DNA of 64,000 bases from the NCBI RefSeq assembly GCF_003473485.1, contig NC_053047.1, positions 14,038,001-14,102,000 on the forward strand, written 5' to 3'. Of this stretch, positions 22,643 through 61,191 are shown piece by piece. The notes below the pieces were generated by a model. It ran no database searches. It was not told the DNA's origin and saw only the letters and a list, made by a program, of their open reading frames with translations. The translations under genes were made by a program, and so were the position numbers. The first letter of the stretch is position 1, and each line of letters opens with the position of its first letter. The DNA is from Medicago truncatula (taxonomy: Eukaryota > Streptophyta > Magnoliopsida > Fabales > Fabaceae).

Positions 22643-24564
22643 TTATAAATGCCCGGCTGTCCCACACCCTCGTCTTCGACGATTTCTTCCGCGATTTACT
22701 TGAGGGTCATGTTGGTCTTCGTCGTTGTTATCTGCAGCTGATTGTATTTGACTACCATAACCCAATGACAATGACACATCGTGTTCCCTTGTTGGCCATC
22801 CCATATCCAGAAATTGATCACTAGAGTTCAACAAAGCCGGAGAAAAGTGAGATAATAGGTTTGTTGGTGTTGGTGGGTGGTTGTAGTTTTGGTTGGTGTA
22901 CATTGGGTATTGTGGGTTGCTGTAGGGGGGGTAATTGGTGTTGGACGGTCCAGCTTGGTTTGGGTCATTATAGGAGAAGTAGTTGTTGTTGGATGCGCCA
23001 GCTTGGTTTGGGTCATTGTAACCATAAGTTGACTGATAATGGGGCTCATATGCATTTCTCGGGGAGGTATATGGTGGTGGTTGGATGATGTTTTGTTGGG
23101 GGGTGTCGAGAAATTCATACATTACAGAACCATGAATGTTTTGGGTTGTATGTGGTTGGGATTGATGATCTTATAGTTGAGAAAAAATGTCTTGATCCCA
23201 AAAATCATCATGAATTGGTGTTTGGTTGTTGCGAATTTCAGGTTCATGTTCCGGCTCTTCTTCTTCGGCTTCGTCTGGATCTGAATTTGATGGGTTTGTT
23301 TCAATTGAAATCCTTAGACGTGGGTTGCATGTGGTTGTCAACCACTCAATATACGCATGAGTGTGGGTGAGTGATCTTGGCCGCATGCGTGGTAAAGTAT
23401 GACTCCGTCGGTTGTCCCAATGTTCGCTCTCTTGTGGAAATCGAAAACCATTTGATTTGTACCACGTCTTGAACCGTTTGTCTATTACATGGTACTGTGT
23501 CATGTCTCGTGGGGGCCCTGGTATTTCTTGTGGCAGACCAAATTGGAGCTTGACCCTATCAGTTGGATGCCATTCAACTTTGTCAAAACATATAAGGTAA
23601 GTTGTTGCAGTCCACTCCCAATATTCTTCAGGTAAGTTGTTGCAGTCCACTCCCAATATTCTTCAGGCAAGTTGTGTGGAACATTCTTGTATGGTCTCCA
23701 AACTTGTAACAGGAAATGACATCCTGTTAGTGCTTTTATATTTGGGTGTGATGCCTCACACAAGCCACGATAAAGGTAAGTCAACACTGCCGATCCCCAA
23801 CTATAGTTTCTTGTTAGATTAAAATCCATTAACAAATACAACCAGGAGTTGTGCACAAATAATCCAGTTGTATTAGGAAACAAGAACCCTCCAAAGAGGT
23901 ATAGTAGGTACCTCCTAGTGTGTTGTATTTTTACCTCCGGAGGAGATTGTTCACTGAAGTTATTATCGACCAGATTATCCTTTAACCACGACAATGAGAG
24001 GGTAAAACCATCAGTTTTATTTGCTGGAGGAGTTATTCCCAACAATTGAGCACAAATGTTCCACGCAAGATTTGGAGGAGCCGTAACAAATGGTCCGCAA
24101 AAAGGTAATCCGAGTAACATATATACGTCTTCCAACGTGATTGTGCATTCACCCGTTCGAAAATGAAAAGTATGTGTTTCAGACCGCCACCTTTCTACAA
24201 GAGCGGTTACGATGTGTCTATCGATTTGGTAACGCCCTATTTGAGAAACCTCAAAAAATCCGGTTTGACGTAGATACTCTTCAATATGAGGACTTGGTAT
24301 TATGTGTTGTCTTGTACGGGTGACGAGAGGTGCACCCTCTGCATCCTAACAAAAAAAATAATAAATGAATACAATTAAAACATAATCAAAATATAAATTT
24401 AAAAAAACATTATATATTGAAATTAATATTGAACTATAATATTAAGAGTAGTATTAATAATTAAAAAATGAAAACGACATTAACAAATTAATATTTATAT
24501 ATACCCATCTTCTGATATGTTCTTCATTGGATCTGTGATCATTTTCCAACCACAAGTATGCCAT
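22643..24564 (-). pseudogene. Plant mobile domain (PMD) protein gene inside the MULE, disrupted
   Basis: Minus strand. Exon 1 is 24564-24505 (20 codons, MAYLWLENDHRSNEEH), donor GTAT. Exon 2 starts at 24345 after TTAG and reads in phase DAEGAPLVTRTR, then RQTGFFEVSQIGRYQIDRH, LVERWRSETHTFHF, TLEDVYMLLGLPFCGP and YLYRGLCEASHP. This is the aminotransferase-like PMD family, including the so-called serine/threonine phosphatase 7 long form homologues and MAIN, often carried by MULEs. A 35-bp tandem duplication (23596-23665) shifts the frame after EEYWEWTATTY. The downstream frame continues with YHVIDKRFKTWYKSNGFRFP, then an acidic stretch, an in-frame TAA at about 23171-23173, and a Tyr/Asn/Pro-rich tail with two YNDPNQAG repeats ending RNRRRRGCG at 22643. 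Two lesions make it a likely pseudogene. Confidence 0.8.
23596..23665. repeat. 35-bp exact tandem duplication (frameshifting)
   Basis: GGTAAGTTGTTGCAGTCCAC... occurs at 23596-23630 and again at 23631-23665 with no mismatch. As 35 is not a multiple of three, it breaks the PMD frame. Confidence 0.95.
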
Positions 24565-26299: not shown

Positions 26300-26480
26300 A
26301 AAATCACATAAACTAACCCGCAAGTGGGGCTTGCGGGGTGTATTAAAAACATTTTAAAAAAATTAAGCATACCCCGCAAGTGGGGGTAGCAATCTATTTA
26401 TTTTAAAAAAAAAAAAAAATTCATACCCCGCAAGTGGGTACCAAGGTACCCCGCAAGTGGGGGTTGCAAGGTACCAGAAA
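26300..26480. repeat. Right subterminal repeats of the MULE
   Basis: CCCGCAAGTGGGGCTTGCGGGG near 26318 and further ACCCCGCAAGTGGG words near 26371, 26425 and 26448 mirror the left end. Confidence 0.7.
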
Positions 26481-26709: not shown

Positions 26710-26799
26710 GTCCTCGTGAGCTTAACTCAGTTGGTAAGGACAACGCATAATATATGCAAGTTTCGACGTTCAAACTCTGGCCACCAAAAAAAAATATAT
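26710..26799 (+). mobile_element. tRNA-derived SINE 1 with 14-bp TSD
   Basis: A-box CTTAACTCAGTTGG and a decayed B-box ACGTTCAAACTCT, ending in an A tract. The perfect TSD ATATCCTTTTGTCG is at 26696-26709 and 26800-26813. The duplicate segment has the single uninterrupted target at 31946-31959. Confidence 0.9.
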
Positions 26800-27373: not shown

Positions 27374-28368
27374 TTAAAGAAATTCTGAATTAATCCCTGG
27401 ACCTTTTCCCGTACTAAGATCTGATCTTCTTCGTCCACCTCTTCCCATACTAAGATCTGATCTTCTTTGTCCACCTCTCCTAATGATCAAAGTGCTGATA
27501 AGTTGCTACAAGAAAAAGAGAATACAAATCAGAATGTGTTAATACCTTGCTGATATAGATAAAGATTGTTTGGAGCCAAAATTCGATTTTGGATTTTCCT
27601 AAATGATTTGTGTTTAACCTCATTAACTACTTAATCTGAACGACTGTCCCCGTGAAATTAACTCAGTTGGTAAGGACAATGCATAATATATATGTAAAGT
27701 CCGAGGTTCGAACCCTGGACACCACAAAAAAAAACTTAATCTGAATGACTTGTTCTATAAGGTTGATTCCACCTATTCAACAACATACTAACATTTAGTA
27801 TTAACAAATTTTAGTTGTTCAAAATAGTCATAATAACTAAACTATTTTTTTTTTTTTTTGAGGGAAATAACTAAACTAATTATAAATGTGTTAAAAATAT
27901 CAACTCTTAATTTTGTTTATTCATTTTAGTTTTGCCAAATTAATTATTATTTTTACTTACAAGATGATACTCATAGAAGAAATGAATACCCAAAAAAAAA
28001 AAAACATTAATCATCTCAAATTAAAAAGAAAGAATTCAGTCAAAAAAATTAAAAAAGAGAGAAATGCTTACAAAACTTTGACCATCACTCGTTGAACATT
28101 CTTTTTGTTCTGCACATGCAAGAACTTTGCCATCATCATTACTTTCAAGATCCTCTTCTGCATCTGAATGAGCTTCTACTTCATCATGTTCTTTTTTGTT
28201 TGCTTCAATTTCAAACCCTAGACATTTGAAGAAAGTTCCAAGGAATTTTTGGAGTAATGAACATGGATGGTAAAGATAAAAAGTGGCACTCCTCTCATTT
28301 GTAACCTCTTCTTCTTGATTTGGTGATATTTCTTCCATTGTTCTTCTTGACTCTTCTTTGTGTCCCAT
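27374..28368 (-). CDS. Probable plant elicitor peptide precursor (PROPEP-like), two exons
   Basis: Exon 1 is 28368-28072 (99 codons) with donor GTAAGC; exon 2 is 27505-27374 after TTGTAG; the phase is 0 and the protein 142 residues. The N-terminal part has PCSLLQKFLGTFFKCLGF (about 35-52), like the amphipathic segment of Arabidopsis PROPEPs (KCLGL type), then an acidic linker (about 58-80). Exon 2 is basic, with two related units, RRSDLSMGRGG and RRSDLSTGKGPGIN. The second fits the S-S/T-G-K-G...N ending of Pep peptides, which act outside the cell through PEPR receptor kinases to amplify immunity. There is no signal peptide, as usual for PROPEPs. Unusually, four residues (SEFL) follow the conserved Asn. 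The intron holds a SINE. Family assignment is from motif memory, not a search; another small basic peptide family is possible. Confidence 0.7.
27646..27733 (+). mobile_element. SINE 2 in the PROPEP intron
   Basis: GTCCCCGTGAAATTAACTCA (A-box) and GAGGTTCGAACCCTGG (consensus B-box), then an A tail. TSD ACTTAATCTGAACGACT (27629-27645) and ACTTAATCTGAATGACT (27734-27750) differs at one site. The copy-2 intron is uninterrupted here (near 33237). Confidence 0.9.
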
Positions 28369-28752
28369 TCTTGTGCTTTAATTGCTATTCAATGTGTGTT
28401 TCAGGTAGGTTGGCAGACTTATTAATAAGTACCTTACCAATCTTTCATCAATAGTGCATTTTGTCTATTGTATTATAAAAAATATTTTTGTCTCATAAAA
28501 ATTGTCATATTAATAAGTACCTTAAGAATGTCACTTTTAACACTTATTAATATGTTAACACTTTCAAGTTAACACCCCTGCAACCGACTTTGCTCTTTGC
28601 AATTTTCATCATGGTTGGCCATGGGGACCTCCAATTGTATTTTGCATTAAGAAAATTTGTATTGGAAATGCAAAATTGTTGATATTTATGGAAAGACATA
28701 CTAGTTGCTTGCCTCTAATCGCATGAAATTTTTCATAGAAAGCATTGAAGAA

Positions 28753-28886
28753 GTCCCCTTGAGCTTAGCTCAGTTGGTAGGGACAAATGCATAATATATG
28801 CAGGGGTCGATGTTTGAACCCCAGACACCCCACTTCTTCACATTAAAAATGTGCGAACTTCAACCATTAGACTACCCGATAAAAAA
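28753..28886 (+). mobile_element. SINE 3 with 15-bp TSD
   Basis: GAGCTTAGCTCAGTTGGTAG (A-box), GTTTGAACCCC (B-box), then a longer tail ending in GATAAAAAA. The perfect TSD GAAAGCATTGAAGAA is at 28738-28752 and 28887-28901. It has the same head as SINEs 1 and 2 but a longer 3' region. Confidence 0.88.
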
Positions 28887-28901
28887 GAAAGCATTGAAGA
28901 A

Positions 28902-29486
28902 GTCATAAAAGCAATTCTAGCTACTACCCCTTTGACTGAATCTAAAAGAGTCAGATGCATTAACTAACGCATTGAATATAGTTTACCACCATTTACTTAG
29001 TTTGCAAAAAAAATTGACCTTTTACTTACAAAGATGTTTAATGGACACCTATTTTTTTTTTCATACATCTGCGATTTGATATTTGGTTAATCATATGTGA
29101 AATTATGATTTATTATATGACTAATTTAATTTGCATTGCAGTTTGTGGTCAACTCAATTAACCACAATTTGTTTCTGAATTGAGTTAACCATACATGGTT
29201 TTGAAGGTGTTATTCAAATATCTAATGGGTTTCTATGAAACTTTTAAAGAGTGTTTTAGGGTTAATCGTTAGCATTTTCCTTTTGTTTTATTATCTTCAT
29301 ATGTTTTGTGATGACAAAGGATGGATTGGTGTAATTTAAATATTCACAGAGTAAAATGTGAAGCTTGTTGCTTATATAACGTGTTGGAACACCGGTGTTA
29401 AGTTGGAAATAAAGTTAGAATGTTGAAAAGTTAAACATCAAGTAACAAGATTTCAATTTAGTTTGTGTGCAAATTGAAAAAATGGT
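28902..29486. other. Intergenic, nothing recognised
   Basis: No coding frame or element end supported. Between 29160 and 29200 the word pair GAGTTAACCAT / AACTCAATTAACCAC forms a loose inverted repeat. Confidence 0.4.
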
Positions 29487-29664
29487 TAGTGTTAACTTGT
29501 GCCCTTAGGGCACAAGTTAAGAAATAAAGAAAAAAGAAATATTCGTTTAAACTTTGTACATTTAATTCATTAAAACATTAAAGATTAAGTCTAATACACA
29601 CATTCCAATACATTATTTCTAAATTTGGCTTCTAAACTTGTGCCTCTTAAGGGCACAAGTTAAA
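29487..29664. mobile_element. MITE with palindromic AACTTGTGCCC ends
   Basis: The left end GTTAACTTGTGCCCTTAGGG and the right end CTTAAGGGCACAAGTTAA are each near-palindromic and inverted to one another. A related element is at 37600-37778. Confidence 0.65.
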
Positions 29665-30496
29665 ATTTCCCTAAAAATAATAGTTATATTATTATTTTAT
29701 ATTCATCCATATCACATCACATAATTTTAGCTTGTTGCATGTGATAAGATTGAGAATCTAACCGAATGTCCTATTTTTCCTCTGTTCATATTCAATTTAT
29801 TTGTTTCCTCCACTTGTGTGGGTTAGTTTCCTTTTGATCTTTTCCCCAATAGTTGAACTAGTTGGCATTTTTTTTTTTTTTTTTTATCTTATGATCCGCA
29901 AGAATTTTCAAATTAATTGGCTGCATAATCGTAGATAAATTCAATTACAAAATATTTATATAAATAGAGCACACCATTTAATACAAAAATCACAATAAAA
30001 AGTTATATTGAGTTATCGATAACTCTTTCTCTCTTCTCCTTATTTCTTTATTCTCTTTTGAGATTAAGAATGATGTTAAAACATAAACTTGTCTCTTGAT
30101 ATTATACCTTTTGATAATTTTCTAAAGTTAGAGGTATCTCAATGCATTCTCTTTAGGCTGTTTTATTTTGTTGTTGTTTCATTGGCTTTTTGAGGGTTTT
30201 AGTCTAGTCCCTTACTTATATATATATTTTCCCTTTTTTAATAATATATATTGAGTAGGCGCTAGATAAATAGAGTTTTAGTTAGGTACCAACTTAGTTG
30301 AAATGTTTCTGATTCTTCTTGATATCTAACTTATATGTTGGCTTATCAGAAAATAAAATAAAAAATCTGCATTCTCTTTCAATATCAATATACTAAAAGA
30401 AATTGTTTTTAGAAGCCAAATTTTACTTTGCCAAATTATTGATCTGCTTCCATTGTTCAAATAAAAATTGATTCAACAAAAAGTACCCCAAATATT

Positions 30497-30785
30497 GAGA
30501 AAATGATTCAATAAATGGGTACACAAAATTTTGTGCATAGGAAACGGTAGTTGATAGGCCGTCTTTCATGTACAGAATTTGCTGTACTTTTTTATTGAAT
30601 CATTTTCTAAGTTTGTGATGTTATTATAATCAATACAATGTTAATAGTATTTGATTATTCAAACATCATAGACTCAGAAAATGATTCAAGAGTACATCAA
30701 AATTTGTGCATAGAAGATGGCTGATGATAGACCATCTTTTATGTACAAAATTTAATGTACTTTTTTGTTGAATCATTTTCTAAAT
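30497..30785. repeat. Two tandem foldback units with AGAAAATGATTCAA arms
   Basis: Unit 1 (30497-30608) and unit 2 (30676-30782) each begin GAAAATGATTCAA and end TTGAATCATTTTCT, with TTTGTGCATAG and GTACTTTTTT inside, so each can form a hairpin. They are direct repeats about 175 bp apart. Probably a small foldback MITE duplicated in tandem. Confidence 0.7.
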
Positions 30786-30820
30786 ATGTGATATTCTAAT
30801 AGTCAATATTTTTAATAAAA

Positions 30821-30977
30821 GAGAAATGATATTTTTCTAACAATTTTTTGACAACTTTATCTCTCATACTCACATTATCTTTCTTATTCTCTCTCTATTA
30901 TTTTTTACCAATCAAAGAAGAGAAAACCAAAGTTGTCCAAAGAGTTGTACTAAAATGTTGTTCAAATATCACTACTC
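30821..30977. mobile_element. MITE (GAAATGATATTT ends), copy 1
   Basis: Ends GAGAAATGATATTTTTCTAA and TTGTTCAAATATCACTACTC are inverted. The CTCATACTCACATTAT core is shared with 31321-31507; an inverse relative lies near 62390-62575. Confidence 0.6.
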
Positions 30978-31320
30978 TTAATAAAAAGTGTATCCCAAAA
31001 TTTGAAATGATGAGATCTACTTAAGAGAAAATTCTCTAAGTGAATCGTAGCTCGTTTAGTGAATCGACTTTTCTTCACCTTAAAATAATGTCATGGCTGT
31101 ACTCAAAAAGTCATTAAACTACCATAGCCCGCTAAGAGAAATTGTGAGTTGGTAAATCTTCAAATCTTGCTGTTCAAAACTTCAAACATTATGACTTGAA
31201 TTCACTAAGCCATCCATCTGCTTGCTTAGTGAGTTGTCCATATTTTTTCTTCCAAAATTTCTTCCTTGAACTTGCTAAGCCAATCTTACTTCAAAATTTT
31301 AAACCAATCAAGTTTTGAAG

Positions 31321-31507
31321 AAGAGAAATGATATTTCAACATCCATTTGGTAACAACTATTGTGACAACTTTCTCTTTCATACTCACATTATTTTTTACT
31401 TGATCTCTCTATTGATATGGTTTCCGTGTCAATACTACTTTTTCTTTGTAAATTATGGTTGTCAAATAGGTTTTCATCAAATTAATTATTCAAATAACAC
31501 TCATCTT
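31321..31507. mobile_element. MITE (GAAATGATATTT ends), copy 2
   Basis: AAGAGAAATGATATTTCAAC at the left, TATTCAAATAACACTCATCTT at the right, TTTCATACTCACATTATTTT inside; same family as 30821-30977. Confidence 0.6.
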
Positions 31508-31733
31508 CAAAGAAATCTTTTGGACATAAAAAATTTAATAACCTAATGCGATCTATAAACATCAAAATCCTTTGTATTATATACTACTACATGTAGCAAA
31601 AAAAAAAATATTTTTTTTATAGGAATATGTAGCAAATCTTAAATCGTGGTAATATATATGAATTTTATTTGTTCACATGCAAATCAACCAATCCAAATAA
31701 AAGTTACAAGTTTGTCTAACAAAATAAAATAAA

Positions 31734-31903
31734 GAAAGTTTCTCTTTAGGCCACTGGTATCTCTAACGCCTCCTAAATAAACATAAGAAAGTTATCTATC
31801 GAATGTACGTTTTTCAAAAAAATATACATCCAGTAAATACCTATCAAATGTGTATTTAAAGTGCCTTAGAGATACTGGGGAAGTCTAAAAAAAACCGCCC
31901 TAC
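31734..31903. mobile_element. MITE private to duplication copy 2
   Basis: Inverted ends GGCCACTGGTATCTCTAA and TTAGAGATACTGGGGAAGTC. The flanks AATAAA on the left and AATAAAA on the right fit a short TSD, and copy 1 reads straight through (near 26655). Confidence 0.7.
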
Positions 31904-32329
31904 AATAAAACCCAAAAAAATGAATTTTATTGTACGTCTTCGGATATCCTTTTGTCAAAATCTCTCAAATCGAATTTCACTAATTTTTTTTCACCACATA
32001 TAAAATTTAATGGTTATTTATTTCCTTATTAGTAAGAAGTGTTATATTAATTTTTTTAAATGAGACTCAGTAAGAGATGCTATACTATTTAAATTGAACC
32101 CAGCAACTTACTATTTAAATCTTCAGATATCAGATCTAAAGTGAGAATTGTCATGCATAAATAGCTAATAATTTCAACACACATGCAAAAGTTCTTACAT
32201 AGAAGAAGATTTTACATAGGAAATGATAGAGTTTTAAGGAAATGCTGAAATATTAGAGAAAGCAAATCACTAGACTAAATTAGTACATGAGAAATAACTA
32301 GCTTTGAGATATTTGTGAGCAAGGATTAA

Positions 32330-33739
32330 TTAATTAATCTGTGGACCATCTCCCTCGCTAATAACTGATCTGCTTCTGCTATTTTCCTGTTTGGAAAAGA
32401 GAATACAGGGTTAAAGTTGATAATAGAAACTGCAAAAAATAAGGAGGAAAACAAATTAGCATGAAATTATAGTCACTTATAAAGTGGCATTATATGGTAC
32501 TGTTATTTTTCGTATTTAAAAATTCACAATCAGGTTGCTATCTTTAAGACGTTTCACGACATTACCTAATTTTGTGCAAGGTAAACTAACAACCGCATAA
32601 AGAATGAGTGGGACGAGCTCTCCTTTTATATAGAAAGTTCGTAAAAAAAAAAAGAGTGACTTAAGGATTAAGTCAACTTAATCCTTAAGCTAGCACATTT
32701 CTGTTTCTTAGTTGGATTATCCGAAAAATTCTGGATCGTAACAAATTTATTTATTACGCGTGTAACGAATAATGATTAGAATAATTAATTCATTTTACAG
32801 TCATAAACGATATATATCTTTTTGACCCTAGCCCGGCCAGTCGGATGGCGGCGGCGGCTTCGTCACGCACGTGATATATATGTTTTTCTAAGTGCTCTCC
32901 CGTTCTCAAAAGGGATATCCCAAGGGCACACCTTTGGAGGTCATCCCACCCTTATATAAACACTTGCTAGTTAGTGTGGCTCACCAATATAAGATATTTT
33001 TAAGTCACACACACTAGTTCTTACCTTATGTTTTTCTATCCAACTTCCACTAGAATTAACTAGTGTTCCAACGCCTGAGTCAAAAAATTTAGAGATCAAA
33101 GAAGGTTGCATTTTTATTTTGTCTTAACCCTTCGAAATTTTTTAAAAAAAGGACGTCGTATACTAGAGAAAGATATGTCCCAATCAGAATTTGATTTTGA
33201 GTTTTTCTAAATGATTCGTGTTTAACCCATTAACAATTTAATCTAAATCATTTGATTTTATATGGTTGATTCTACCTATTCAATAACATACTAACAATTG
33301 TTAGTGACAAATTTTATATAATCATAATAACTAAACTAATTATAAATGTGTTAAAATATCAACTCTCAGTTTTTTTTTTCATTTTAGTTTTGCCAAATTA
33401 ATCTTTTTCTTTTTTACTCACAAGATGATACTCATTGATGAAACAAGAAATGGGATCAAAGAAATGAGAAATATATGAATATCAAAAAAACTTTCATCAT
33501 CTCAAATTAAAAAGAAAAGTAAAAAAAAAAAATTAAAAATTAGAGAGAAAAGCTTACATGTTCACTTCTTGCTTTGCCATGTTTAGTTCCAAGATCCTCT
33601 TGATCATGTTCTTTTTTGTTGTACATTTGAAGAAAGTTCCAAGGAATTTTTGGAGTAAAGAACATGGATGGTGAAGATAAAAAGTGGCACTCCTCTCATT
33701 TGAAACCTCTGCTTCTTGATTTGGTGATGTTTCTTCCAT
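32330..33739 (-). pseudogene. PROPEP-like gene copy 2, frameshifted
   Basis: Exon 1 starts at 33739 (MEETSPNQEAEVSNERSATF) and keeps the PCSLLQKFLGTFFKC segment. Relative to copy 1 a net 19-base loss follows FFKC (near 33622), and a further in-frame 24-base loss occurs soon after. The 19-base loss shifts the frame so that it ends at TAA (33554-33556), across the conserved GTAAGC donor. In copy 1's frame the donor and the acceptor at 32387-32389 would join in phase 0. Exon 2 (32386-32330) then reads ENSRSRSVISEGDGPQIN followed at once by a stop, ending exactly at the conserved Asn. So the peptide exon looks preserved while the link to it is broken. The upstream ATG used in copy 1 is also out of frame. 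Confidence 0.65.
32663..32689. repeat. Hairpin TAAGGATTAAGT/ACTTAATCCTTA
   Basis: 12-bp arms with a 2-base loop, nearly perfect, within the intron insertion of PROPEP copy 2. It may mark an element end. Confidence 0.5.
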
Positions 33740-33939
33740 TGTTCTTCTTGACTCTTATTCCCATTCTTGTGCTTTAATTGCTATTCGATGTGTGTTTCAG
33801 GTGAGTTGGTAGGCTTATTAATAAGTACCTTACCAATCTTTCATCAATGGTGCATTTTATCTATTGTACTATAAAAAATAATTTAGTCTCATAAAAATTG
33901 CCACATTTGTAAAAAAAAAAAAAAAAAAAAAGAAATTAG

Positions 33940-37878: not shown

Positions 37879-40138
37879 TCAGTTCCTGCGAAAGCTATTT
37901 AACTTTACCATCAAAGTAATATAGAGATTGTCGCCCACTCTATCAAAAAACCGAAAGCATGCATGCCTCCATTTTCTAATAAGAAACAAAGAACCACATA
38001 TCCCCCAGAAACCTGCTGCAAATCCAACCCCCATGCCAAGGTTCAATGATTCTTTTATAGAGTCGTCATCTTCATTCTTTGTAGATGGTGTTGCAGTTCT
38101 AGGATTTTCTTCTTTCATGGTACAATTATTAAGAGGAGCTCCACAAAGTTTAGGATTCCCAATATAACTTGATGCATTAAAACTTTGAAGTTGAGTTCCT
38201 ATAGGGATTTTTCCGTCAAAATTGTTGTGAGATAAATTCAAATATATTCCAAAAAGGTTAAGATAGACATGCTCCGAGGAATTTCACCAAAAAACTTATT
38301 ATTAGAGAAGTCCAAAGATTCCATAAGTTTCATGTCTCCAATTAGCAGGGGTATTGTTCCAGTCAAATTATTGTGAGATAAGTTCAATGTTTGAACTTGA
38401 ACAAGCTGAAATAATTCCAGTGGCAATTCTCCAAACAAGCTATTAGCTGAAAGGTCAATAGTTCGTCTATCTGGATTGACTTGATACATATAATCTTGAC
38501 CTTTGGTAAATAAATTAAATGTGGTAGGGTAGTACAAATCCACATGAAAAGTAACCATATGAGTCAAGTTGTAGACGTTGTGTGGCAAAGATCCTGAAAG
38601 TTTCATATGTGCAAGGTCTAGGTGAAACAAATAAGAGAGATTAAATAGTTGTGGGGGAATACTGCCTTCAAATTTATTTTCTCTCAATATGACCACTTGA
38701 AAGTTTGGTGAAATCAAGATTGTTATGGTTCCATTAAATTCATTTTCTCCTAAGTTCATGGTTTGCAACTGTTTCAAGTTAGAGAAGTATGATGGAAGTT
38801 CCCCAGACAACCCATTACTCCACAGGTCCAGGACACCCAGTTCTTTCAAGTTCATCCAACTGTGTGGAATTGATCCTGAGAAAGAGTTGTAAGACAAATC
38901 AATTATAGCGGCCATTGGTGATATGTTTGGGAGTCCTCCTGTGAAGTTATTGTGATCCAACCTTAAGTCGAAACAATTCATTGTTAAGTTAGATATGTCT
39001 TCAGAAATTGAATTCTTTGACAAATAAAGCTCAAAGTGGTATGTTTCTATAAGGCTTGAGAACTTATTTTTGTCTACCTATGAAATTCCGGAGCTCGATA
39101 AGTTGAGAACTTGCAGTGACTTTTGTGTGTATATCCATGATGGAAAATATGGGCCTTGATTTGTATTTCGCACTGACAGATAAGAGAGTTAAAAAGGAGG
39201 AACCCAATCCAAATCAAATTGGAATACAAGCTTTGAATTACTCAAGCATAGTGTGTCTAAACTAGAGAGTTTAGAAAAAGTTAAATTTGAAATTTCACCA
39301 GAGAAATTATTAGAGCTAATAGATAAGTAATTTAAGGATGAGAGGTTTCCTAGAGTTGAAGGAATTGATCCTTGTAGGTTGTTTTCAAAGAGATCAATAT
39401 ATCTCAAAGTTTGAATGTTTAGCAAGGTTGAAGGTATTTTACCATATATATATTACTATGTGAAAGGTCAACAGTGGTGAGATTTTTGGTGAGATTAAAA
39501 AACTCATTAGGTATATGAGAGGTGAAGTTGTTTTCAGAAAGATCAAGAGTTACCAGCGAAGACAAATTCAAATACTCAAGAGATGGGAAGTTGTTCAGGT
39601 TACAACCTCTCAACCGTAATTCTAATTGTGAAGGAAGTGTATTCACTACTTGGAGCCAATTAGTTTCCTTATGAAGATCAATGCCATTAAACCGGAGATA
39701 TTTCAAGGAAGAAAATGGAGAAAACCAATGAAGATTATCAATGTGAAGAATATTATCAAAATTGTAGGCGGATAAGTCAAGGTAGACAAGTTTAGATGAA
39801 TTTGTGATGTTGTGTTGAATGGATGAAATTTTTATCACATCAAATTCATTATGACTCAAATCCAAATAGCTGAGAAACTTAAGTTCTAGAATACAAAGAT
39901 TCATCTTACCTTTCAAAACTTTGATTGGCTGATGATCGTCATGAAAATAACTGTTTAGATTAAGTTTTGTAACTCTTCCGGTAATGTTGTCACAGTGGAC
40001 TCCTTCCCAAGCACAACAACTTTTTTCGGTTGACCACGTTGATATCCGACCAAGAGTGTCATTGACTCCCTGTTTGAAGGTTAAGAGTGTCTCTCGATCT
40101 TTCTCATTGCATTGAACCAATGTGTGATTGTTGCACAT
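37879..40138 (-). pseudogene. LRR receptor-like protein (RLP) gene, disrupted
   Basis: Minus strand. The 5' block (40138-39450) has an LRRNT domain (CNEKDRETLLTFKQGVND, then CCAWEGVHCDN) and several LRRs. The middle block has LRRs such as NNLQGSIPSTLGNLSSLNYL. The 3' block ends with LRRs, a GNPKLCGAPL cap, an acidic juxtamembrane stretch and one transmembrane segment (GMGVGFAAGFWGICGSLFLI) with a short basic tail and no kinase. This is the layout of receptor-like proteins of the Cf-9/EIX type that sense extracellular ligands with SOBIR1. Lesions: a frameshift near 39450, in-frame stops at 39189-39191 (TAA) and 39078-39080 (TAG), and a frameshift near 38245. No signal peptide was found upstream of the MCNNH start. 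An intact copy would be around 800 residues. Reading as a pseudogene is strongly supported. Confidence 0.85.
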
Positions 40139-40215
40139 GGTTTTGTAGTATGTGACATTTGTGTAGTAAGAATTGTCATCATGAATAATTGTTTGACCCA
40201 GAGAAGAAGATCTAA

Positions 40216-40460
40216 TTCAAATATGGTTATGATTTGTGATGAGATTTCAATGTGCTTATATAAGATCTTGGGTTATGGGAAAGCTTAACAAAAGATAAAA
40301 AGCTTGATAAGAAAGCATGTGGATAACATTCAAATGGGATTATGATTTGTTAAGAGATTTTAATGTGCTTATATAAGATGATGGGTTATGGGAAACCATG
40401 AAAAAAGATAAAATTGGATATTAGGTAAAAAAAAAGAAAAGAAAAATTGGAAAAATCTTC
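40216..40460 (-). promoter_or_regulatory. Duplicated RLP promoter with two TATA boxes
   Basis: A 113-bp unit is repeated in tandem (TTCAAAT..GG at 40216 and 40329). Each copy contains GTGCTTATATAAGAT (TATA near 40256 and 40369) and GGGTTATGGGAAA. The proximal TATA is about 115 bp upstream of the first RLP ATG on the minus strand. Confidence 0.7.
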
Positions 40461-42421: not shown

Positions 42422-45400
42422 TCAACATTGAGCCAAAGCAGCCACAAATTCTTCAATATTTTTATCAGATCTTCCACCCTCATCAACAGAATCCTTAGCC
42501 AAATTCTTCCATTTCAAAGCATTTTTCTTAATTTCATTTCCCTTTTCAGTCTCAATTATTTCCTTTATACAATTTTTAATTGTTTCACTTCTAACAATCT
42601 CTTTTTCATCAGCAATAGCTCTAACTCCCATTTTCCAAACATCAGCAATAAGCTTTGCATTCGTAACTTGATCGGTCCAAAGTGGCATTGCAATCAACGG
42701 AACACCGATGCTCAAAGCTTCCAACGTCGAGTTCCAACCACAATGTGTCACAAAACAACCTAAAGCTTCATGTGTTAACACTAAAAGTTGTGGACACCAT
42801 GTCACTATTAAACCTTTCTTTGATGATTCCACATACCCATTTGGAAGCTTAACTTGTTCAGATTCTCTAACAACCCATAAGAAATAACTTTCACTATCTT
42901 TTAATCCTAAAGCTAGTTCTTGTGTTTGCTCTTCACTAAGACCAGCCATGCTACCAAATGAGACATACACAACTGAACCTTTTGGCTTCTCATTTAGCCA
43001 TTTGATGCAAATTTCTGTATTTGGATCTGAAATGCTAACACCATATTCTTTGTCATCTTTAAGTCTTTTATCCAAAAATATAGATGGTATTGACGGTCCT
43101 ATTGTCCTTAATGGCCAGATCTTCACCATCCAATCCACTACCTAAATAAAATTTCATTTAAAATTTAGATCATCACAAACAAAATAAAAATCAGTACCAC
43201 CATTCTAGTTATACGACTCTCCTAAAACAATGGAAATGATCTATTTTTATAAAGAAATAATTGATAAGTGCTAGAAAGTTGTATTTTAAATTATATATTT
43301 TAGGCACTTTTGTTACTTGTTTTGCAAGTTATTGAGGAAAAAGCCGAGAGATAAGTGATTATTGCCCTTTTACGCTTTATCTATCTTACTTCACCCATTT
43401 GTGCAGGATTCGAACTCAAGACATCAAGCAAAGAGAAGAAAATGGAGAAAAGTACAAAGAGGTAGAAAAATGAGATCATTCGCCATGGCGAGCAGCAAAG
43501 ATGAGCAATTCCAGTAAGCAACAAAGATTACACACCACCAACTCGCAATGGCGAGTAGAAGGTGAGTTTGTTCGCCATGGCGAGTGCAAGTACTCGCGAG
43601 GCGAGTTAGGGCGGTTTAAGCTTCTCAGTGATGACGTGGCACAAACCCAATGGTGAAGGAACTTCAACTCGCCATGACGAATGAAGGAGCTCGGGAGGCG
43701 AGTGGATGCAGATTTAGAATTCTATAAATAGCTCACTCAATCATTTCAATGAGTTAGTTTTTGACTCTTAGTTTTTCATAGTTTTCATTTTGTAATATTC
43801 TTAGAGAGAGAGATAGGGCTTGTTCTTGATAGAGTGAGAGTGATAGAAAGTGGATTCTACATCATTTTGTTGAGAGATCACAAGTGTGTAATGGATCTTT
43901 CTCTCTCAATTCATTCTTGCAAGGCTTCCATGACAATGAGTAGCTAAATCTCCTTTGTTGGGATTAGAGGTACTACTTGATCTTAGCTTAACATGTAATC
44001 TTTTGATCTATAAATATATGGTTCTAGCATTTGATTTGATATTGATGTTATTCTTGCACTTTAATGCTTATGTTTGATTTAATTGTGATTGAGAAATACT
44101 TTTGAATCTAGGTTTAGAATAATCATCTATCAAAACATAGGTTCTAGACATGGAATTGATGTTTTGATAATCACTTTTTGTATCCAAACTTAAAGCTTTC
44201 TTATCATTCAATAGATTGAGAAATCATCGATTAAATGATAAGACCGACTCTTGAATCATTCAATAGTTTGAGACATCGACGATTGAATGATACAGTTGAT
44301 TTCACAATATTGTTTGGACACTAATAGTGTTGTCGAGGGATACGTGATAATATCAAAGAAAAGCTAGAATCCATGTATGATCATTAGGTTACGTGTGACG
44401 CTTGATCAAGGAACTCTAATCCTAACAAGTTTCACGCATTATTAATCTCAACTTTATCATTTGCAACTTAGTTATTCAAATAAACAACAAATTATCGTTT
44501 AACTTATAATGATATTTGGTGTCGAACGGTCCGCGATATCGCACTAGTCCCTAAGGAGACGAGATAAATACTTACTATTGTTTGATGCAAAAATACTACA
44601 TCAATAATTAACATGCTTGATTAAAAAACTACAACAGACGCTTTTCACAAGAACCAGGCCGATGCTAAAGAATTTGGCTATGCTATAACAGCTTGCAAGA
44701 ATACTTTCGCCTCTCAAGTTAGAAACTCTGAGGTTGAGTTTAATAGGAGACAAGCAAACGAGGTCGCTCATGCTTTAAGCACCTTTCCTTAAAAAAAATA
44801 AAAAAATCAAAACCACCTACGGAAGTGTCTATGAATTTTTTTCTAGAGAATTTATCTAGTGATGAAAGTAGTACTACCAGAATTGATGCATCTTATAGAC
44901 TTAAATTGAGTTCATTTTTTCTTTGAAGGTGGTTCGAGAACTTACATACCTAGGAATGTTAGCATAACTTTCTTTTTCTTTTCTTTGGGTTTTAGCCCCC
45001 TTTTATTACCAAAAAAAGTTAGTTTATGGCTGCGATCGAAATCAAATTCATTACAGTCAGGATCTCCTACATTTACGCGGTGAGAGACATCAATGCTCAT
45101 TTGATCAAGATCAGACCATCCAAAAAAGTAGAAATTCTAATTTTAACTTTATAATTAATAATACCTAGCTGAAATCTGAATTATCTGATTCTGTCTAGTG
45201 ATTTCCAGTGAGTACGGGAAATCCCTATACAGAAAAGCCAAACCTGCCGCTATCTGATATTCATCATCAAGGTTTTTATGTTTTTCTGACCACAATACGA
45301 TTACCATCGATACTAAATTTAACTTTGAATTTTTGCAACATTAATCACAATGTTACCACTATTTAAAACCTTCCTAGTACTATATTCCAATTTAAAAGAA

Positions 45401-46088
45401 CAATTGGACATATTATATTATTGAAGTGACTTACCTCCTTTTCCAGTTCATAAAATGTGTTTGCAAGAATCCAATCAGCTTTACCAATGTTTGAAAATTG
45501 ATTGACAACTATATCAAAGTAGCCTGGATAAGATCCATATTTATACAAAAAAGAAGGCAAATCCCCTTGAGCAAGTTTTGGCAATCCAGGTAACAAATAC
45601 TCAGATTGTGTAAGTGGCAACTCTATCAACTTCTCATGAGTATGAAAGTATATGCTGTTAACAGAACAAGATTGAGTGAAAAATGCAACACCAACTAGTC
45701 CAAAACTCTTGGCAACATCAAGAGCCCAAGGCATAAATGCATCAAAGATAACACAATTTGGAGGGTATTTTGAGCTAGAAAGTTTATGAAGAAGTTCAGA
45801 AAGATCTTTTGATCCAACCCTCCAAAAGGTATCCATGTAAATTTCTAAGCTCTCTGCTGATTCATAGCCTCCATCATCATAGCCATCTGAGATGCTTTCA
45901 ACATCAATATTTGAAGAAAGATTTTTGTTCTTGATAGTTCTCCAAAGGGAAATAATAGTTACAAGTGTAACTTTTACTCCTTTATGGATCAAACGTTTTG
46001 AGAATTGAATCATAGGATTCATGTGACCTTGACCTGGAAAAGGTAAGATCAGACAGTGAGCTACATAGTTTTTATTTTCCTTTTCCAT
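42422..46088 (-). CDS. UGT74-like UDP-glycosyltransferase, copy 1
   Basis: Exon 1 is 46088-45435 (218 codons), donor GTAAGT; exon 2 is 43141-42422 (239 residues plus stop) after ATTTAG; phase 0; 457 residues, normal for the family. Catalytic His22 lies in PFPGQGHMNP and its partner Asp is probably D116 in VIFDAFMPW. The C-terminal half has GSVVYVSFGSMAGLS and a full 44-residue PSPG box (W333-Q376) with HCGWNSTLEA and a final WTDQ, pointing to UDP-glucose. The group L UGT74 resemblance (HCLILPFPGQGHMNPMIQFS) suggests glucosylation of carboxylic acids or phenols such as salicylate, jasmonate or auxin-type compounds in the cytosol; the substrate cannot be told. A TATA box lies near 46152 (minus strand). 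The 2.29-kb intron is enlarged by a solo LTR and a LINE fragment. Confidence 0.93.
43262..44603. mobile_element. Solo LTR in the UGT copy 1 intron
   Basis: Starts TGATAAGTGC and ends CTACATCA, flanked by the 5-bp TSD ATAAT at 43257-43261 and 44604-44608. It is 1342 bp with no internal retroelement coding. It has a TATA-like TCTATAAATAGC (about 43720) and six variants of CTCGCCATGGCGAG (43471-43700). Removing it leaves an intron of about 946 bp, close to the 994 bp of UGT copy 2. Confidence 0.88.
44640..44806 (+). mobile_element. LINE RNase H fragment
   Basis: Plus-strand translation from about 44650 gives NQADAKEFGYAI and, at the end, EFNRRQANEVAHALSTFP, typical of the RNase H tail of plant L1 elements, then a stop and A-rich DNA. 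It sits antisense in the UGT intron. Confidence 0.65.
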
Positions 46089-46325
46089 TCCTCTTTCTTT
46101 GTTTTTCTTATTTTCCTAAGAGAATGTACCTAAGTGTGCATTGATTAGAAGTATATATAATACACAAATGACCATAGGGTGTTTCAAAAGGTATGTCTCA
46201 AATGATATTTCTTTATTAGAGTCAGTTTGGATTTGATTATTAACAGATTATATGAGTCCATCTGTTACTTGTTAACGTTAGATTATATGGCATACCTACT
46301 TTTTCTTTATAAATAACCAACGTAT

Positions 46326-53945: not shown

Positions 53946-55985
53946 ATCTCCAACGGGCGGAGGAGGATTGCATTCGTCTGAGGCGTCGGGGTGGCAGGGC
54001 ACGTCGTATTGAAGTCGAGCCTCAGCCGGAACATGAGCAAGAGTATGATGAGATGGACGTGCAGCAACAACAGCAAATGGATGAGGAGCTTGAGGCAATG
54101 GGGAAGCGTGTGGTGGTGCCATACCCTGAGCCTCTTGATGACTATCCTGGTGGCCCACACGACACTTCCCTGCTGTGGAGGTACCATGTGCACGTGGCCA
54201 GGAAGGCGTCTGAGGGCGAGGTATTAAATAATGTTAAACTTCCTATAATACGTTGTTAATCTTTGTGAAAATGATGTTTATGTATTGTTAAACTACCCAT
54301 TTTGTAAAGCCATGATTGTAAATAGTTGTTAATATTTGTGAAACTGATGTTTATGTATTGTTAAATTGTTGAATTGCCATGTTTTGTAAAGTCAAGAGTG
54401 TAAGCTGATGTTCTTAATTATTTGCAGTGACGTGGCAATTTAAAATGCATCAACGATGGAAAGAAGATAGAAGCGATATATGATAAACATTCCATCCCTA
54501 TCATGGCTGCACGGTGGTGACATGACAAAATTGCAGGGCACCGATCTTTCTTGGTTTAGGATACCAACTACAGACTGATTGACCACGGTCTGATTTTTGC
54601 ATTTGTGGAGAGGTGACAGTGGCACTTGATGATGTGTCCTATTTGCTGCATTTCCCAATTGATGGCATGCTTCTGTCCCATGAAGGAATGACAAGGGACG
54701 ATGCGGTGGAAATGATGATGCAGTATTTGGGTTGTGATCCAGGTGATGCTGTTGTTGAGGTGACTCCTAACAGAGGTGCACATTGTCGATTTAGCTACTT
54801 GAGGAGGATTTTCAAGGATCGTCTTTTGCAGCAGTTGGAGTTGGAGAATGAGTATGGTGTGACTCAGGAGGTACGGGGGTTGTGGGACCAGGTTGTCCGC
54901 ATATATTTGTTATACTTGATCGGGATCACTCTCTTCACTGACAAGAGCCAAACTGCTATGGATGTTGTCTACCTGAGGTACTTTAGAGACCTTGATGTTG
55001 TTGCTGAATTTGCATGGGGAGCTGCGGCACTAGCTCACCTCTATAGGAAGCTTAACAATGTTGCACATTGAAACTGCGGTCAGGTGTCAGGATATCTGAC
55101 TTTGTTGCACATATAAATTAAAAATTATATTATATATTTTTTAAATGTAAATGTTTATTATTTGTATATTATGTGGTTGTCATCAATGCAGGCTTGGCTG
55201 TATCAACACTTCCAAGGTATGGGAAGCGGGGATGCCTGGAAAGGATATCGGGAGAATTGATTTTTGTACCACATGTTGGTTTGGGTACACCAAACGAGTA
55301 TAGAAACCATCTGGATGGGCTGGATATGAGTGGCGTTGTGATACACCCCTATAGAGATCATCGTCAGGCATGTTCGATTGAGCGGGTCAGCATTTACTCT
55401 CGATGGCTCAGATACGGCCCCCACATAGTGAGATATCTGTCGGAACGGGTGCTTCGTTAGTTTGAGAGGGTTCAAACCCGAGACATCCCAATGAGAGTGC
55501 ACCTGCACAGATTACCTTGGGGGAGATCACACTCCTCTTTCAGCGTTCTTTTGATTATGCGCTGACACCTGAGCAGTTGGGATATTATTTAGTTTATGGT
55601 GTGGAGGAAGTAGAGGGGTACATCCAGTGGTTTTTTTACCGGTCTCATCCACGCATGATTCTTCCCGACATGCCGTTACCGATGCCGAGGCCACTAGAGC
55701 GTGAGGTCATGGATGAGGTTGCTGCTCAGAAGGATGGAGAGCATGGGTTTCTAGAACTTCGCGGAAAGTTGGGCCGTATCAGAGACTTTGTGTAATTTAT
55801 TATGTTGAGTGGTGAGGTTGAGCAAGGGTCGGAAGCATGGTGACTTTTGGAGGAGATATTGGGAGAGGTGCATGTTAGGAAGATTTACCGTCGTCGGCAA
55901 ATTGTTCGGGGTGGCAGGGGTGGTGGCAGAAGTGGCGGCAGAGGTGGTGCAGGGGTGACAAGGGTGGTGGTGCTACGGGTGTAGT
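53946..55985 (+). pseudogene. PMD-domain gene relic (second PMD locus)
   Basis: Plus strand. The first block (53946-54221) encodes RLRRRGGRARRIEVEPQPEH, a Gln-rich stretch, then PGGPHDTSLLWRYHVHVARK and donor GTATTA. The second, after TTTGCAG at about 54427, gives CINDGKKIEAIYDKHSIPIM with a stop (TGA) soon after, FAFVERW, then a deletion. 54613-55071 gives TVALDDVSYLLHFPIDGMLL, RGAHCRFSYLRRIFKDRLLQ and YFRDLDVVAEFAWGAAALAH, characteristic of the PMD family. The third (55190-55795) is frameshifted but ends with LTPEQLGYYLVYGVEEVEGY; an Arg/Gly-rich tail closes at about 55985. Several stops, frameshifts and a missing segment mean it is not functional. It starts under 100 bp from the solo LTR. 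Confidence 0.75.
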
Positions 55986-58268: not shown

Positions 58269-58771
58269 AACCATTTTCTAAATATTCATACCACTCTACT
58301 AAAACTTTAAAGTGGATCCCACAAAATCCCACCATATACCTCACAATTGTATTTTATATTAATATATAACATCCTTTCAAAATCATAATTTAATTTTATA
58401 ATTATTTATAAATTCAACAATGCCAAATTGTCAAATTTCCTTACTATAATGATGCTCTTAGGATCCAAACATACACCATCAAGCCAACTCCTGGCGGTGA
58501 CATTAAGACTCTTAACACACAACAATTGGTTTGTAATGTCCCAATTATGACCTAATAATAGGTGACACAACATATTTGAAATAGATAGACTCTAGTACCA
58601 TGATAGAATATTTTTTTTTAAGAAGTTAGGTTAACCCACCTAAATTGACATATAAATAATTGAACCTAAAATTTTGATGATGAGTACATTCTCAGATCCA
58701 AAACCAATACCACCAGGCCCGTCACAGTAAAGTACTATCTAGAAGTTCAATTGCTTATTGTGTGTGTGAGT

Positions 58772-58780
58772 GTATATAAA
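58772..58780 (+). promoter_or_regulatory. TATA box of UGT copy 2
   Basis: TATATAAAT, 47-55 bases before the ATG at 58827, giving a very short leader. Confidence 0.55.
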
Positions 58781-58826
58781 TTCAGTTGTAGCCAAAGAAA
58801 ATCCAGAGGAAGATAGAGAGAGTAAG

Positions 58827-61191
58827 ATGGAAAGTGAAAAGAAAAACCATGCACCTCACTGTCTCATCTTACCTTATCCAGCACAAGGCCACATGAACCC
58901 TATGATTCAATTCTCAAAACGTTTAATAGAGAAAGGAGTAAAGATAACACTAATAACAGTTACATCTTTCTGGAAAGTAATCAGCAACAAAAATCTCACT
59001 TCTATTGATGTCGAAAGCATCTCCGACGGCTACGACGAAGGAGGCCTTTTAGCAGCAGAAAGCTTAGAAGATTACAAAGAAACCTTCTGGAAAGTTGGAT
59101 CACAAACTCTCTCAGAGCTTCTTCATAAACTTTCAAGCTCAGAAAACCCTCCAAATTGTGTTATCTTTGATGCATTTCTACCTTGGGTTCTTGATGTTGG
59201 AAAGAGTTTTGGATTAGTTGGTGTTGCTTTTTTTACTCAATCTTGTTCTGTTAATAGTGTATACTATCATACTCATGAGAAGTTGATAGAGTTGCCACTT
59301 ACACAATCTGAGTATTTGTTACCTGGATTGCCAAAACTTGCTCCAGGGGATTTGCCTTCTTTCTTGTATAAATATGGATCCTATCCGGGATACTTTGACA
59401 TAGTTGTCAATCAATTTGCGAATATTGGTAAAGCTGATTGGATTCTTGCAAACTCGATTTATGAACTCGAACCAGAGGTACGTTACATTAAAACTGCAAA
59501 ATTTCTTTCTTTACTTTAATTTTCTGTATTATTAAGCTGCAGAATTTATTTTGATATGTTTGAATTGATTCTAATGTCACCGTAGAATTTGAAACTTTTA
59601 TCCCTAGAATTGACTTTAAGCCTTAAATTCACTTTTACATGTATGTTTGATTTCACTATTGAACAACACAAAATTGATTATGGAAGTGTAGAGTTGCTTT
59701 TAACATGTTTAGTGTTTATATATTCTCAAGTAGAATAGACTTTGCCTCTATGATTGAATATAACTCGAAGTTAAGACTTGAAGTTTTTGTCTCTAAATAT
59801 GATTTTTACATTCAAATTTATTATTCTACTTACATTTACGTTGAGTTGTAGAATTTATTATGATGTTTGAATTTTCTAAACTAGAATTGATTTGTCATTC
59901 CGAATTGATTCTAATGATACGTTATAATTAGAAACTTTTGTCTCTAAAATTGACTATTAGCCTTAAATTTTGTAGTTAAACTTACTTTTACGTGTACGTT
60001 TGATTTCACTATTGAATTAGACAAAATTGATTATGGAAGTGTAGAGTTGTTTCTCACATGTTTAGATGTTCTCGAGTAGAATAGAATTTGCCTTCATGAT
60101 TGATTCTAACTTGAAGATAGGACTTGTAGCTTCTGTCTCCAAATATGATTTTCACACTCAAATTTATTGTTGAGATCACTTTCACCTAAACAACTTATCA
60201 AAACATAAACAACTTCGCATTCAAAATCAGTTTTACGAAGTGAATTCAATTTTCCTAAGTGAATTCATTCAAAATCAGTTTTTGTCACCGCAGAACTAAA
60301 CACACTTGTTCACTTGTTTTTACCTATTAGAATGTAAAGGTACAATGTTTTAAATCATGTCGCATCACGATCTTAATTATTGTCTTAAATATTGTTGAGA
60401 ATCGCAATCAAATGCGAATGGTCCTACTGTCTTTATTTTCTGTTGATGATTTAAATCTGAATTTGATTTAGGTGGTTGATTGGTTAGTGAAAATATGGCC
60501 ATTAAAGACAATAGGACCATCAGTGCCATCTATGTTATTGGACAAAAGACTCAAAGATGACAAAGAATATGGTGTTAGCCTTTCAGATCCCAATACAGAA
60601 TTTTGCATCAAATGGCTGAATGATAAGCCTAAAGGTTCAGTTGTGTATGCTTCATTTGGTAGCATGGCCGGTCTTAGTGAAGAGCAAACACAAGAACTAG
60701 CTTTAGGATTAAAAGATAGTGAAAGTTATTTCTTATGGGTTGTTAGAGAATGTGATCAAAGTAAGCTTCCAAAAGGGTTTGTGGAATCATCAAAGAAAGG
60801 TTTAATAGTGACATGGTGTCCACAACTACTAGTGTTAACACATGAAGCTTTAGGTTGTTTTGTGACACATTGTGGTTGGAACTCGACGTTGGAAGCTTTG
60901 AGCATCGGTGTTCCACTGATTGCAATGCCGCTTTGGACCGATCAAGTTACGAATGCAAAGCTTATTGCTGATGTTTGGAAAATGGGAGTAAGAGCTGTTG
61001 CTGATGAGAAAGAGATTGTTAGAAGTGAAACAATTAAAAATTGTATAAAGGAAATTATTGAGACTGAAAAGGGAAATGAAATTAAGAAAAATGCTTTGAA
61101 ATGGAAGAATTTGGCTAAGAGTTCTGTTGATGAGGGTGGAAGATCTGATAAAAATATTGAAGAATTTGTGGCTGCTTTGGCTCAATGTTGA
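58827..61191 (+). CDS. UGT74-like UDP-glycosyltransferase, copy 2
   Basis: Exon 1 is 58827-59477 (217 codons), donor GTACGT; exon 2 is 60472-61191 after GATTTAG; phase 0; 456 residues. The ATG at 58827 gives MESEKKNHAPHC, aligned with copy 1. Catalytic His22 is in PYPAQGHMNP, Asp115 in VIFDAFLPW, and the PSPG box is W332-Q375. From VESSKKGL to the end the protein differs from copy 1 at only two positions, while the N-terminal part and early exon 2 differ much more. It is divergent to copy 1 with a 12.7-kb spacer. The same biochemical class is expected; specificity may differ because the acceptor-binding N-terminal half is where the copies diverge. The intron contains a 353-bp tandem duplication. 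Confidence 0.94.
59530..60170. repeat. 353-bp tandem duplication in the UGT copy 2 intron
   Basis: TGGAAGTGTAGAGTTG occurs at 59681 and 60034. Around these, GAATTGATTCTAATG, TTTGATTTCACTATTGAA and TCAAGTAGAATAGA/TCGAGTAGAATAGA keep the same order and spacing. Diverged, so older than the exact duplications elsewhere. Confidence 0.8.

Follow-up and report, generated by a model that had tools for sequence, protein, structure and literature searches.

Two tandem two-exon copies of a PROPEP gene, both on the minus strand, were recognized by reading the sequence and open reading frames (ORFs) of a 64,000-nucleotide stretch of Medicago truncatula DNA (C6:14038001-14102000, referred to here as the window; the genome comprises 430 Mb in 42 contigs). 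PROPEPs, which lack a signal peptide, carry at their C-termini the Peps that PEPR receptor kinases recognize. The pair probably (we put this at about 0.85) arose when a legume PROPEP gene was duplicated in tandem, copy 1 being a functional Pep precursor and copy 2 a duplicate with a frameshift. Judged from sequence, both copies would constitute a newly described pair within an already known family. Legume Peps are defence signals whose short two-exon precursors are readily missed by gene finders, and exact models of the pair, together with the six family matches above the cut-off described below, should aid the choice of peptides and knock-outs. The gene models are as follows.

28338 (or the in-frame ATG at 28368) to 27374, minus strand: copy 1, predicted gene model
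28072..28338, minus strand: copy 1 exon 1, 89 codons if translation starts at 28338 (alternative in-frame ATG at 28368)
27506..28071, minus strand: copy 1 intron, 566 bp, GT..AG, phase 0
27374..27505, minus strand: copy 1 exon 2, QLISTLIIRRGGQRRSDLSMGRGGRRRSDLSTGKGPGIN followed by SEFL and a stop; putative Pep core DLSMGRGGRRRSDLSTGKGPGIN
33558..33739, minus strand: copy 2 exon 1, 182 nt from the ATG at 33739, 2 modulo 3
32387..33557, minus strand: copy 2 intron, 1171 bp, with a dispersed repeat at about 33072-32524 that is not in copy 1
32330..32386, minus strand: copy 2 exon 2, phase-0 frame ENSRSRSVISEGDGPQIN followed by a stop, with SxGxxxxxN directly before it

Exon 1 of copy 1 encodes the region recognized by Pfam family PF17232, a Cys-flanked hydrophobic/basic segment followed by an acidic linker. 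The predicted splice uses the GT at 28071 and the AG at 27506, is in phase 0, and joins 28072 to 27505, so that the frame ends ...GGQRRSDLSMGRGGRRRSDLSTGKGPGINSEFL. In copy 2 the GT is at 33557 and the acceptor lies before 32386, and the peptide of the Pep exon is ARSEHENSRSRSVISEGDGPQIN. The first-pass annotation had described two copies in the same orientation that share a hydrophobic/basic segment and an intron at the same place. The orientation is borne out by minus-strand repeat blocks 96% and 91% identical and the segment by PCSLLQKFLGTFFKC, which is contained in both copies. The sequence signals agree with a common intron position, as the GTAAGC donor is common to both copies and GTATTCTCTTTT precedes the acceptor in both. 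Its statement that no single open frame covers either gene also holds among the listed ORFs. Of the two endings that it gave, GPQIN directly before the stop is found in copy 2, and GPGIN is not the end of copy 1, where SEFL comes before the stop.

Both copies match PF17232 (Pep1_7) above its curated cut-off of 26.2 bits, copy 1 with an E-value of 9e-20 (71.4 bits) and copy 2 exon 1 alone with 7.6e-07 (29.9 bits), which supports the PROPEP identity that had been proposed from family knowledge. The other Pfam matches listed, Mug62 (0.093) and HOOK_N (0.029), are both under their own cut-offs. The copy 1 match spans residues 20-95 of the 142-amino-acid model, that is, exon 1 only; support for the Pep end of copy 1 is separate from the Pfam match and comes from the C-terminal motif and from likeness to the peptide of a paralogue on C1. 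The motif of copy 1, STGKGPGIN followed by SEFL, fits SxGxxxxxN, and that of copy 2 is SEGDGPQIN with the stop directly after it. According to PMC4526913, the Ser, the Gly and the terminal Asn of SxGxxxxxN are required in AtPep1. The six reading frames of the window contain 3444 stop-ended frames with a length of 12 amino acids or more. In four of them [ST]xGx5N lies no more than four residues from the stop, and the two exons are among these four. Two of the motif carriers end exactly in Asn-stop, one of them being copy 2.

Scanning the genome with the PF17232 profile gave 17 matches listed at E up to 10, the best of which is the exon of copy 1. Six of the 17 pass the cut-off: two in the window, two on C3, one on C1, and one on C8, the last only together with its neighbours in the frame. 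The same scan was positive in 0 of 14 control genomes (the kind of genomes is not stated). The C1 paralogue (C1:47.48 Mb) resembles copy 1 in its start, the ATG at 28338 lining up with its MEE start, in a phase-0 intron before the Pep exon, and in 12 of 23 Pep residues. It differs in that the intron is 103 bp, the stop follows straight after the Asn, and TxGxxxxxN replaces SxGxxxxxN. The gene ends NLSSMGRGGPRRTPLTQGPPPQHN-stop, and its peptide, ending LSSMGRGGPRRTPLTQGPPPQHN, is presumably the published MtPep1.

Peptide comparisons tie these genes together. The 23-mers of copy 1 and the C1 Pep share 12 of 23 ungapped identities and those of copy 1 and copy 2 (the latter in the Pep frame, not the first-ATG frame) share 10 of 23, and in both cases 0 of 20000 shuffles were as good. 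The remaining four of the six Pep 23-mer pairs are weaker, with 6 or 7 of 23 identities and 7 to 110 of 20000 shuffles as good. In exon 2 DNA, copy 1 and the C1 gene have a short common stretch (1 of 1000 shuffles as good), and the alignment of copy 2 with the C1 gene is at chance level (309 of 1000).

A further PROPEP pair is located at C3:46731658-46733559 (about 46.73 Mb). As in the window, the two family matches share a strand; they are separated by about 1.5 kb, and one member ends SAGRGAQIN with an ISSS tail; unlike the window copies, this gene is a single frame for which no intron is needed. A search by motif in stretches of about 1.5-4 kb found no Pep exon for the neighbouring C3 gene or for the C8 match, the only motif match there being a loose one in the C3 locus, away from any C-terminus. 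The C8 match (C8:42428164-42428400) is a PROPEP-family exon in a frame without Met that ends KKKES-stop, resembling the RKRKES-stop of the C3 neighbour; the two ends possibly reflect a common donor or a common truncation.

The 29-residue copy 1 peptide had no match among solved structures at E up to 10. Five peptide strings were absent from the searchable literature text and no title or abstract opening describing this pair was found; supplements and most subscription papers lie outside the scope of both searches, which therefore do not establish that the pair is unpublished.

Alignment of the two copies supports a duplication that extends beyond the coding exons. A repeat block of 137 nt (28222-28358 / 33623-33759) is 96% identical, and the adjoining upstream sequence is also duplicated:

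28363..28516, minus strand: duplicated 5' leader and proximal upstream region of copy 1, 154 nt, 91% identical to 33759-33912

Upstream of this leader block the copies are less alike, with 83 identical bases among 172 aligned. Because a global MAFFT alignment misplaced exon 2 and the 3' side (exon 2 identity 55/132), these were aligned separately. The exon 2 regions then align at a score of 41; none of 1000 shuffles scored as high, and the best of 304 control stretches from the window reached 27. The near 3' flank aligns at 189.5 (maximum 31 in 304 controls) and an intron piece at 80.5 (control maximum 35.5). The far 3' flank (27250-26555) scores 155.5, less than the control maximum of 225.5, and homology there is therefore not supported by that control.

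The window genes have in common with known PROPEP/Pep1_7 members an N-terminal Cys-flanked hydrophobic/basic segment, an acidic middle, a basic C-terminal exon, and SxGxxxxxN. Copy 1 differs from known PROPEPs in a near-repeat of 12 residues, which lies upstream of the Pep and runs into it, and in a 4-residue tail, SEFL, after the key Asn of the motif. The near-repeat is visible in the DNA:

27404..27475, minus strand: 36-bp near-repeat in copy 1 exon 2, GGQRRSDLSMGR / GGRRRSDLSTGK, 33 of 36 bases equal

The SEFL codons begin where about 80 bp of copy 2 sequence, including its stop codon, is without a copy 1 counterpart. Either copy may be the one that changed there. Copy 2 differs from known PROPEPs in that exon 1 is out of phase, and it was classed as a damaged relative rather than a working member.

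The lesion in copy 2 is in exon 1, which measures 182 nt compared with 267 nt in copy 1 and shows several alignment gaps after the conserved Cys. With exon 1 out of phase, translation from the first ATG through the main splice gives a product that reads MVHRLIN at its end and misses the Pep; since the gaps put the first ATG out of frame, little or no Pep is the most likely outcome. The Pep exon itself is undamaged and canonical. The first-pass annotation had called one copy intact and the other decaying; that outcome stands, with the corrections that the peptide exon of copy 2 is undamaged, the lesion lying in exon 1, and that copy 1 is altered too. Copy 2 resembles a Pep gene in the midst of decaying, its precursor frame lost and its peptide exon kept.

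Several observations weigh against copy 1 as a working precursor and copy 2 as its frameshifted duplicate. The copy 1 donor fits only 5 of 9 consensus positions, four residues follow the key Asn of copy 1, and evidence of selection is weak: copy 1 and copy 2 differ by 4 non-synonymous and 1 synonymous changes in 39 codons, and the contrast in divergence between exon 1 up to the gap (5/117 bases) and the 5' leader (16/152) reaches only P = 0.068 in Fisher's test. On these counts purifying selection appears neither clear nor excluded. The weak donor, the short and AT-rich exons, and the chance-level match of copy 2 to the C1 exon 2 DNA are what could be said for unrelated small frames that merely resemble a peptide precursor. 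Such a coincidence is highly improbable, being contradicted by the Pfam E-values, the paralogues in the genome, the motif control and the peptide comparisons. It is also unlikely, to a much lesser degree, that both copies are dying, the tail and repeat having ruined the copy 1 peptide and left the function to the C1 and C3 genes. SEFL does sit at the position of copy 2's stop, about 80 bp of 3' sequence in copy 2 is unmatched in copy 1, and strong constraint is not evident from the codon changes. Against this, the frame of copy 1 is still open, both of its splice sites keep their dinucleotides and SxGxxxxxN its full spacing, and copy 1 has the best PF17232 score among the genome matches listed. 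Tails past the Asn, moreover, occur in 3 of the 8 synthetic AtPeps listed (2, 4 and 5) in PMC10902123, and the C3 paralogue likewise continues past its Asn (N-ISSS).

Decay of copy 2 alone must also be weighed against the improbable case that it still works, an upstream GT or a downstream ATG giving a canonical Pep in smaller or regulated amounts. A GT at 33565/33564, 8 bases upstream of the main donor, would give a 174-nt exon 1 and an in-frame ...MAKQE-ENSRSRSVISEGDGPQIN, and internal ATGs would give products of 54 and 41 amino acids ending in the Pep, whose undamaged exon has its stop right after the Asn. By a crude donor count the upstream GT fits 5 of 9 positions, and this count keeps it in play because copy 1's own donor also fits 5 of 9. 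The main donor scores higher, however (7 of 9 consensus positions), the internal ATGs come after an earlier ATG, and the 41-amino-acid product is without the conserved N-terminal segment and without a Pfam match at E up to 10. Another possible acceptor, TTTTTTGCAG, precedes copy 2 exon 2 and would restore phase by adding 43 bases; it was set aside because a stop codon follows within them (by eye). Less likely still than a working copy 2 as such is a splice-controlled Pep source, in which choice of the upstream GT under damage or stress would switch the copy 2 Pep on while copy 1 made its tailed Pep all the time.

If copy 1 is the working precursor and copy 2 its frameshifted duplicate, the splicing, processing, receptor and function of the pair may be modelled on those of the family, starting from the observed sequence, gene structure, family match, paralogues and phase change. 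Copy 1 would most likely give a predicted precursor of 132 (or 142) amino acids. When the plant is wounded or infected, a metacaspase activated by Ca2+, or a similar protease, would cleave this precursor behind a basic residue, and basic residues are present upstream of the Pep in copy 1; AtMC4 cleaves Propep1 at Arg69 in a Ca2+-dependent manner, as reported in PMC7206013. The cut would release a C-terminal Pep of about 23 residues ending ...SDLSTGKGPGIN(SEFL), which a PEPR-type leucine-rich-repeat receptor kinase on neighbouring cells could sense, amplifying immunity. PMC4526913 describes both the perception of Peps by PEPR receptors and the induction of volatile release by MtPep1. Copy 2, as a damaged duplicate, would most likely contribute little or no Pep.

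Each of the two introns carries a dispersed repeat absent from the other copy. That of copy 1 resembles a short interspersed nuclear element (SINE):

27640..27730, plus strand: SINE-like dispersed repeat in the copy 1 intron, 91 bp, tRNA-like boxes by eye

This element is common in the genome (1687 candidates, 40 of them scored), and three copies of the short repeat lie in the window, at 26710-26785, 27646-27725 (the one in the copy 1 intron) and 28753-28829. The short repeats were rejected as tRNA genes, ARAGORN finding none. The repeat in the copy 2 intron (32524-33072) is about 550 bp long and has at least 85 matches including itself, the other pieces being 70-97% identical; these matches come from 40 of 333 candidates scored.

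Elsewhere in the window, leucine-rich-repeat frames occur in several pieces at 37879-40216 on the minus strand; the scan covered two of three pieces and gave matches to LRRNT_2 and LRR_1. Two glycosyltransferase-like frame pairs in opposite orientation, alike by eye, are found at 42422-46115 and 58770-61191; of the two of their four frames that were scanned, 42422-43141 matches UDPGT and 58770-59519 is without a Pfam match. Plant mobile domain (PF10536) frames are present at 23500-24345 and 54583-55071, and an Rfam MIR2679 match (24072-24190, minus strand) lies inside the first of these. At 26314-26472, in AT-rich surroundings, there are four copies of a GC-rich unit around CCCGCAAGTGGGG, with 62-85% identity to the reference copy.

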